Assembly: GCA_025964625.1 (NCBI GenBank)
Contig: JAOPYL010000262.1
Location: forward strand, 1 to 64,000
DNA length: 64,000 bases
Reading direction: 5' to 3'
Origin: Actinoallomurus sp.
Lineage (GTDB): Bacteria > Actinomycetota > Actinomycetes > Streptosporangiales > Streptosporangiaceae
In this document: in pieces, positions 5,779 through 63,120 of the stretch
How positions within the stretch are numbered: position 1 is the first letter of the stretch
Layout: the number at the start of each line of letters is the position of its first letter
Position numbers and translations under genes: made by a program
Notes under the pieces: model-generated
The model's input: only the letters and a program-made list of their open reading frames with translations
Database searches by the model: none
Told to the model about the DNA's origin: nothing

Positions 5779-8289
<2,511 letters not shown>

Positions 8290-22916: not shown

Positions 22917-23163
<247 letters not shown>

Positions 23164-48723: not shown

Positions 48724-48774
48724 GTGTCGTTCCTTCCCTCGGGGGTCCTCGCCCCGGCTCGGGTGAAAGCACCG

Positions 48775-48962
48775 ACAGCGGGAAGTCTCCTGACTCTCAG
48801 GTCATCGCCATGGTGGCCCGGCCCTCTCATGAGGTCCGTTCCACCACCCGCGGCCTTCCAGCTCGTCGCCGTGGCCGTACGCGCGGGCTCGCTACCTGAT
48901 CACAGTTGCGGGACAGCCCCGGAATCGCACCGGGTTCCTTCCCTGCCGTCGCCCGGACAGTC
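48775..48962 (-). promoter_or_regulatory. cobalamin (B12) riboswitch
   Basis: Read on the minus strand, the leader contains GAACCCGGTGCGATTCCGGG, then GCTGTCCCGCAACTGTGA, and near its 3' end the B12 box GAGTCAGGAGACTTCCCGC. These conserved blocks in this order define the AdoCbl riboswitch. It ends about 50 bases before cobN and should reduce its expression when cobalamin is plentiful. Confidence 0.93.
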
Positions 48963-49106
48963 TAGAGAACGGCACCGCGAGCAACGGCACGAGACGCGCC
49001 AAGGTCAAAGCCACACAAAGCCTTGACACCCTCTCGCGGCGGATGTTGCCGTCGTCTTCCCTGGTCAGCAGGGTGACGAACGCCGTCACCTACGTTCGGG
49101 GGCAAC

Positions 49107-61411: not shown

Positions 61412-62470
61412 GTGTTCTCCAGTCACGCGGACTACCGGAAGCTCGAGGACAGGGCCCGGCGGGTCCTGGACCCGGGCGTCTTCGACTTCTACGCGGGGGG
61501 CTCCGGCGACGAGACGACGCTCGCCGCCAACGAGGCCGCCTGGGGCCGGATATCGCTGCGCCCGCACGTGCTCCGCGACGTTTCCGGAGTCGACATCCGC
61601 ACGCGAGTGCTCGGCCAGGAGCTCGCCGGCCCGGTGTGCGTGGCGCCGGTGGGCTATCAGACGCTCGCGCATCCGGAGGGAGAGCTCGTGACGGCCCGCG
61701 GCGCGCGGCGGGCCGGCGCGCTGCTGACGGTGTCCTCACGCAGTTCGCGGAGGATCGAGGACGTGGCCGCCGAGGCGGGACCCTGGTGGTTCCAGGCGTA
61801 CGTGCTGCGTGACCGCGGGCTGACCCGGGAGCTCGTGTGCCGTGCGGCGGCCGCGGGGGCGACGGCGCTCACCCTCACCGGCGACACCCCCTACCTGGGC
61901 CGGCGGAGACGCGACCGCGATCCCGGGTTGATCCCGGACGAGATCTTCCGCGTGAACCTCGGCGACGGGTTCGACCGGGCACTGGCCGAGCAGGCGTCCG
62001 ACGTCACCTACGACGACATCGCGTGGCTCCGTGAGGTCTCCGGGCTTCCGGTCGTGGTCAAGGGTGTGCTGCGCGGCGACGACGCGCGGGAATGCGCCGC
62101 CGCGGGCGCGTCGGGGGTGTGGGTGTCGAACCACGGCGGGCGGCAGCTCGACGGCGCGGTGGCGACCGCCGAGGCGCTGCCGGAGGTGGCCGCCGCCGTG
62201 GGCGACCTGGTGGAGGTCTACGCCGACGGCGGCGTGCGTACCGGCGTCGACGTGCTCCGCGCGCTGGCTCTCGGCGCCAGGGCGGTGTTCGTGGGCCGTC
62301 CGGTGCTGTGGTGCCTGGCCACGGGCGGCGAGGATGGTGTGGCAGCCGGCCTGGCCGAGCTGTCCGAAGGACTCGCGCACGCGATGGGGCTGGCCGGCGT
62401 GACCGTGATCGCGGAGATCACCGGGGGCTTGTGCCATCCCGCCGCCGGGAGGAATAACGTGGAGGGGTGA
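61412..62470 (+). CDS. FMN-dependent alpha-hydroxy-acid oxidase
   Basis: A 352-residue TIM-barrel flavoenzyme (lactate/glycolate oxidase family). VFDFYAGGSGDETTLAANEAAW near the start, LTLTGDTPYLGRRRRD, VVVKGVLRGDDARE with the flavin Lys, and SNHGGRQLDGAVATAEALPE with the catalytic His/Arg are conserved. It oxidises a 2-hydroxy acid; the substrate is unknown. GTG start; the DUF3099 gene overlaps by four bases. Confidence 0.92.
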   Translation: MFSSHADYRKLEDRARRVLDPGVFDFYAGGSGDETTLAANEAAWGRISLRPHVLRDVSGVDIRTRVLGQELAGPVCVAPVGYQTLAHPEGELVTARGARRAGALLTVSSRSSRRIEDVAAEAGPWWFQAYVLRDRGLTRELVCRAAAAGATALTLTGDTPYLGRRRRDRDPGLIPDEIFRVNLGDGFDRALAEQASDVTYDDIAWLREVSGLPVVVKGVLRGDDARECAAAGASGVWVSNHGGRQLDGAVATAEALPEVAAAVGDLVEVYADGGVRTGVDVLRALALGARAVFVGRPVLWCLATGGEDGVAAGLAELSEGLAHAMGLAGVTVIAEITGGLCHPAAGRNNVEG

Positions 62471-62820
62471 GGGTCCCATCCCGGCGCCGGCGGCGCGACA
62501 GGCCGGCCGTCTACACCGTCACCGACGCGCACAGGCCGCTGTCGGAGGACATCGGCTACCGCGAGCGGCGCTATCTCATCACGATGGGCGTCCGCGCTCT
62601 GTGCTTCGTGCTGAGCATCGTGTTCGCGGTGACGCTGCACGGCCCCTGGCGATGGCTGGCGGTCGTCGCTCTGCTCGGCGCGGTGATCCTGCCTTATGTT
62701 GCGGTCATCTTTGCCAACGGCGGACGCGAGCCGGACAGCAGTGCCCGGTTCGCCCCGTATGATCCGAAATCACCGCCCGAGAAACGGATTTCCGGGCCCC
62801 GGGACCAAATCGGCCCGTGA
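62467..62820 (+). CDS. DUF3099 membrane protein
   Basis: A 117-residue actinobacterial protein. A basic start leads to AVYTVTDAHRPLSEDIGYRE with RRYLI, then two helices (ALCFVLSIVFAVTL and WLAVVALLGAVILPYVAVIFAN) and a polar tail. The function of DUF3099 is unknown. The GTG overlaps the oxidase stop (GTGA), so translation is coupled. Confidence 0.9.
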   Translation: MRVPSRRRRRDRPAVYTVTDAHRPLSEDIGYRERRYLITMGVRALCFVLSIVFAVTLHGPWRWLAVVALLGAVILPYVAVIFANGGREPDSSARFAPYDPKSPPEKRISGPRDQIGP

Positions 62821-62827
62821 CAAGCTC

Positions 62828-62859
62828 TTGACTAACTGAGGGGGGGTTCGGTGTACGAT
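62828..62859 (+). promoter_or_regulatory. candidate promoter of the three-hairpin RNA
   Basis: TTGACT (62828-62833) and TACGAT (62854-62859) resemble -35 and -10 boxes, with a longer than usual 20-base spacer. A start seven bases on would begin the transcript at the first hairpin. Confidence 0.4.
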
Positions 62860-62866
62860 TTGTACC

Positions 62867-62974
62867 GGCGCTCTGGTCCCCCGTCGGGGCGCCCGTGCCG
62901 GTGTTCCGGGCCCCCGTCGGAACACCGATGATCGCGACGCCGGGAGGATTGCCCCCGTATCCTCCCGGCGTCGC
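62867..62974 (+). ncRNA. candidate 6C-like small RNA with three C-loop hairpins
   Basis: Three consecutive stem-loops fill this gap. Hairpin 1 is GGCGCTC/GGGCGCC (62867-62893, one G-U pair) with loop TGGTCCCCCGTCG. Hairpin 2 is CGGTGTTCC/GGAACACCG (62899-62927) with loop GGGCCCCCGTC. Hairpin 3 is GCGACGCCGGGAGGA with its perfect complement (62934-62974) and loop TTGCCCCCGTA. All loops expose CCCCCGT. Actinobacterial 6C RNAs carry C-rich hairpin loops that pair with G-rich ribosome sites. No gene fits here. The 6C assignment is inference; the repeated loop is directly visible. Confidence 0.6.
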
Positions 62975-62986
62975 CATTCTCCGACT

Positions 62987-63018: not shown

Positions 63019-63078
63019 AGATTCCCGGTCGGCCTGCGATAGCCGATAACGCGGCCGAGGCCCCCGAAACGCTGGCGT

Positions 63079-63102
63079 GGGCCCGGTCCTGGGACCGGGC
63101 CC
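63079..63102. terminator. palindromic hairpin before the ABC permease stop
   Basis: GGGCCCGGTCC and GGACCGGGCCC (63079-63089, 63092-63102) are perfect 11-base arms with only two bases between. It lies 19 bases past the stop of the leftward permease gene and probably ends that transcript. Confidence 0.6.
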
Positions 63103-63120
63103 GCGCGTGATCAGCGTCTG

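Follow-up and report, generated by a model that had tools for sequence, protein, structure and literature searches.

A locus with three C-rich hairpin loops lies directly downstream of a DUF3099 gene in the 64-kb stretch of DNA analysed here (hereafter the window), and comparative sequence analysis indicates that it is a real RNA locus and represents a new RNA family, which is not a member of the 6C RNAs. The gene order comprises a dodecin gene (minus strand), an FMN-dependent dehydrogenase gene, the DUF3099 gene (62467-62820, plus strand; PF11298, E = 4.1e-24), the small RNA locus and an ABC-2-type permease gene (minus strand). Since the permease gene is convergent, the RNA locus is not the leader of the gene downstream. 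The same locus is present in Actinoallomurus purpureus and A. spadix.

The RNA contains three adjacent hairpins on the plus strand: hairpin 1 (62867-62893) has a 9-bp stem and the loop GUCCCCCGU at 62876-62884, hairpin 2 (62899-62927) a 10-bp stem and the loop GGCCCCCGU at 62909-62917, and hairpin 3 (62934-62974), the putative terminator, a 16-bp stem and the loop UGCCCCCGU at 62950-62958. All three loops are exactly 9 nt long and end in CCCCCGU. The first-pass annotation of this DNA had described three adjacent hairpins with a common CCCCCGT loop and stems of 7, 9 and 15 bp; we recovered all three hairpins at 62867-62974, but the stem lengths had to be corrected to those given above, which include G-U pairs. 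Both strands of the window were scanned for 9-nt loops ending in CCCCCGT on stems of at least 8 bp, with 41 permuted 7-mers as controls: three such hairpins were found, all of them in the RNA locus, whereas the permuted 7-mers gave no hairpin at all. The same scan of 1.2 Mb from a related genome (G200) gave four hairpins, of which the orthologous locus accounts for three; with permuted loops the mean was 0.44. The three-hairpin observation holds well above chance expectation, and the folding energy of the segment is 4.3 standard deviations below that of its own dinucleotide shuffles. Exact-pattern matches in Streptomyces noursei, Blastococcus, Roseicyclus, Paractinoplanes and Paenibacillus (L071, L119, L129, L134 and L144) were rejected as repeats unrelated to the RNA. 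Tandem repeats with CCCCCGT units can mimic the loop pattern, as at positions 6792-6883 of the Roseicyclus locus L129 and in the Paenibacillus locus L144.

A DNA search recovered the locus in 40 of 60 relatives and in 34 of 36 family members, and 33 relatives were aligned. The loops are nearly unchanged across the rows: the C-run and the GU that follows it are invariant in most of them, and the stems vary. Overall, 99.8% of the cells are paired and 16 of 35 pairs show double changes versus 6.5 in shuffles, a count that is not a probability because the aligned rows are related. For hairpins 1, 2 and 3, respectively, 99.3%, 100% and 100% of the cells are paired, and four, five and seven pairs have changed on both sides. 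Sliding the partner by 1 to 3 columns as a control reduced pairing to 37-54%; these controls and a separate two-hairpin set of 27 rows (97.9% of cells paired, 11 of 21 pairs with double changes versus 2.4 in shuffles) agree with the three-hairpin covariation. Loops that remain almost constant while the stems covary are what the proposed selection on exposed C-rich loops predicted. Stems and loops are also kept in relatives beside DUF3099, the point on which the first-pass annotation had made its reading depend beforehand.

The promoter-like boxes that had been noticed before hairpin 1 proved to be conserved in the 33 aligned relatives. The -35-like box TTGACT (62828-62833, plus strand; CTTGAC invariant in 33 of 33) is followed by the -10-like region GTGTACGAT (62851-62859, plus strand), which contains TACGAT (TAnnnT) at 62854-62859 and in which GTGTA is invariant and TAnnnT kept among the 33 relatives. 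CTTGAC and GTGTA are 18 nt apart and TAnnnT is kept, so the gap between TTGACN and TAnnnT is 20 nt, as it is between TTGACT and TACGAT in the window. A generic σ70 scan, restricted to spacers of 16-18 nt, did not list the two boxes. In many relatives a U-tract follows hairpin 3 itself, the tail of the window's own copy (CATTCT) being weak, and the hairpin repeat further downstream that had been put forward as the terminator is not needed. From the conserved promoter and terminator hairpin we infer a discrete transcript of about 110-115 nt (62866-62980, plus strand; 128 bits with covariance model R1), its start placed by the -10 box and its end by the terminator hairpin. In the lowest-energy fold of the isolated window RNA, some C-runs are paired with a G-run of the promoter spacer; as the spacer is upstream of the predicted start, this G-run would be outside the transcript.

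Model R1 identified full-length three-hairpin copies in 40 of 40 other family genomes sampled and gave weaker matches in other families. A two-hairpin form, with the first hairpin CGCUCCG-CAUCCCCCGU-CGGAGCG and the terminator hairpin loop (U/C)CCCCCGU, takes the same place in many further families of this class, as in a genus whose gene order is Streptomyces-like. A second model, R2, was built from two-hairpin rows only and detects the window locus as a single copy in its genome (E = 2.3e-8 genome-wide) as well as loci in a total of 155 of 395 sampled genomes of the class, with every family genome among the matches listed at E values of about 1e-8 to 1e-10; E-values of these home-made models are rough. 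A phylum sample of 296 genomes yielded 11 matches, all in the same class. In some families (G048, G051, G073 and G108) the terminator loop is the only one kept. The first hairpin of the two-hairpin form has its counterpart in hairpin 1 of the window, whereas hairpin 2 (GUUCCGGGCCCCCGUCGGAAC) is missing from two-hairpin relatives and is very similar to hairpin 1; on both counts, duplication in Streptosporangiales would be the simplest origin of hairpin 2. The one-, two- and three-loop forms offer a natural series for understanding why C-loops repeat. With this distribution, a hitherto unlisted RNA family joins a group that has very few understood trans-acting RNAs and no Hfq homologue by sequence searches (PMC6789036).

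DUF3099 is the conserved upstream neighbour of the RNA. Among 37 distant loci that were picked by the RNA models, with neighbours ignored in the choice, 35 have a same-strand DUF3099 gene immediately upstream; the other two are weak matches in which the first hairpin has no C-loop. Two weak model matches, neither of them beside DUF3099, were discarded: L201 as a chance match and L190, whose first hairpin has no C-loop. In Streptomyces-like genomes (a label inferred for these relatives), the order is tyrS, a small membrane protein gene, DUF3099, the RNA and moaA, with names taken from the translations. The two-hairpin loci of this type (L198, L199, L202 and L203) have a different RNA promoter, GTGACATACT, preceded by a conserved AAGCTCA-AGCTCAGATCAAT element, which may be a regulator binding site.

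How could such an RNA act? The reading we favour, with moderate confidence, is a free-standing trans-acting small RNA, whose CCCCCGU seeds would pair with G-rich mRNA sites and thereby block translation or destabilise the mRNA. RNA polymerase would start near 62866 from the TTGAC-N18-GTGTAnnnT promoter and stop past hairpin 3, and the transcript would present three identical seeds in rigid 9-nt loops. Each seed could pair with ACGGGGG-like sites or G-runs near the ribosome binding sites of target mRNAs, with an outcome as for 6C/B11, and several loops would allow either redundant binding or a joint grip on several sites of one mRNA. In B11/6C, base pairing to guanine tracts next to ribosome sites involves the C-rich loops, the terminator loop among them (PMC12395582), and in M. 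abscessus either loop suffices (PMC10470900). By this analogy, the RNA described here probably works like 6C, through C-rich loops on G-rich sites near start codons. The invariant GU after the C-run suggests a recognition that is more specific than that of any G-run. ACGGGGG is not enriched near the starts of 977 predicted genes of G200 (5 occurrences versus a mean of 10 for permuted 7-mers; the starts are approximate, coming from a simple home-made gene caller), which argues for a target set that is small at most. One candidate target, the mycothiol conjugate amidase gene mca with the ribosome site ACGGGGGA in G200, was dropped as the site is not conserved in 18 relatives.

The same lack of enrichment would fit a different mode of action, in which mRNA pairing is unnecessary. 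CsrB/RsmZ sponge RNAs repeat a GGA motif in several hairpin loops and bind CsrA; similarly, a C-binding protein could read the CCCCCGU loop here, and the number of copies, one to three by clade, would set the sequestering capacity. One loop sequence of constant size in three hairpins with differing stems is consistent with this idea, as is the variation in loop number between families, which is also seen in sponge RNAs. It stays in play because the GU and the loop length of 9 nt vary hardly more than the C-run itself. The repeated motif, however, is CCCCCGU and not GGA, the partner is putative and without a candidate protein, and the closest functional precedents (6C/B11) use base pairing. We therefore regard protein sequestration as rather unlikely.

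Much less probable is a divergent 6C RNA or a 6C paralogue, as had first been considered for this locus. 6C (RF01066; B11 in mycobacteria and scr3558 in Streptomyces coelicolor) is of the same general build: small and actinobacterial, with C-rich hairpin loops and a terminator as its last hairpin. However, 6C has two hairpins with at least six C in each loop, whereas the window RNA has three, with five C followed by GU, and is found at the DUF3099 locus. The Rfam 6C model gave no match in the window even at E values up to 10. Both RNAs coexist in one genome: the canonical 6C of the window genome (59 bits) is located on another contig, C366, in line with the earlier remark that the locus beside DUF3099 is distinct from the standard 6C location, and it is matched by neither R1 nor R2. 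The lack of an RF01066 match, the separate 6C and the failure of R1 and R2 to detect it lead us to conclude that the RNA may work like 6C without being a member. The features found here are instead those of a class of its own, namely a terminator hairpin with a CCCCCGU loop 3′ of DUF3099, on the same strand and with its own promoter, and they support the three-loop class with selected C-rich loops that the first-pass annotation had offered as its other option. No Rfam family matches the window RNA at the gathering threshold, and none matches the two-hairpin distant homologues.

Two Streptomyces RNAs, scr5583 and scr1434, resemble it in that they are expressed and conserved RNAs of actinobacteria whose terminal loop is C-rich (PMC3765725). 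Their names take the number of the right flanking gene, which places both elsewhere, whereas the homologue of the window RNA sits between DUF3099 and moaA (naming rule from PMC3765725; SCO1821 is moaA, PMC4021200). A literature search, with supplementary survey tables outside its scope, found no paper on DUF3099 and none that names an RNA between DUF3099 and moaA or at SCO1819-SCO1821. The two-hairpin homologue may already stand as an unnamed transcript in published Streptomyces RNA surveys.

The location just 3′ of DUF3099, in the same orientation, and the terminator shape of hairpin 3 could also mark a mere conserved terminator or processed 3′ end of the DUF3099 mRNA without a function of its own, but an invariant promoter separates the DUF3099 stop codon from hairpin 1, three identical invariant loops would be superfluous for a terminator, and Nocardiopsis-type genomes (e.g. 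L074 and L082) keep the RNA although DUF3099 was not found within 1.4 to 7 kb upstream, so that the RNA is more than a DUF3099 3′ end and we give this explanation hardly any credence.

For a trans-acting RNA that pairs with mRNAs, as preferred here, the leading candidate target would be the whiB mRNA, whose gene has the same promoter architecture. We searched 25 genomes for TTGAC-N18-GTGTAnnnT and found exactly two sites in 14 of them, one at the RNA and one at the promoter of a WhiB-type gene; the pattern read backwards, as a control, gave 11 matches across all 25 genomes. In three genomes (G010-G012) only the RNA site is present, and their whiB promoters read GTGTAATTA, with the final T missing. 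PF02467 identifies the encoded protein as a WhiB, and in structure it is closest to the chains named “Transcriptional regulator WhiB” in 8dy7 and 8dy9. A promoter type common to the RNA and whiB is well supported by these sequence comparisons; should it be confirmed, a small RNA would be linked directly to the WhiA-WhiB sporulation-septation switch. The whiB promoter TTGACG-N17-GTGTAATTT (G000:C88:621-652, L307) is conserved across the class with an unusual 20-nt spacer, and a second GTGT-GTT element usually follows about 15 nt beyond it.

Immediately before its ribosome site, the whiB leader has G-runs, e.g. AGGGGGGCUCCACGGGG. A loop-complementary 6-mer was found in the whiB leaders of 27 of 30 genomes versus 11.9% of background leaders, and ACGGGG in four of the four Streptomyces-like whiB leaders read versus 3% of the background. 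We hypothesize from these matches that the RNA regulates whiB. By predicted duplex energy whiB mostly ranks among the best 5-30% of leaders, the rows being related; such ranks are not decisive, and whiB was not accepted as a target from duplex energy alone. Beyond the family and the Streptomyces-like genomes, the occurrence of the whiB G-runs is not in step with that of the RNA. A more far-reaching scenario, which we consider doubtful, is an ancient Actinomycetia-wide RNA that expanded from one or two loops to three in Streptosporangiales, where it would have combined a whiB-type promoter with direct multi-loop repression of whiB in a two-gene developmental circuit for cell division.

Three further elements were observed in the window. 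A strong inverted repeat (GGGCCCGGTCCTGGGACCGGGCCC region, 63078-63106) between the small RNA and the convergent permease gene is probably a terminator for the convergent transcripts. A tRNA gene is located at 22917-22990 (plus strand), and a cobalamin riboswitch (69.5 bits) at 48763-48994 (minus strand).
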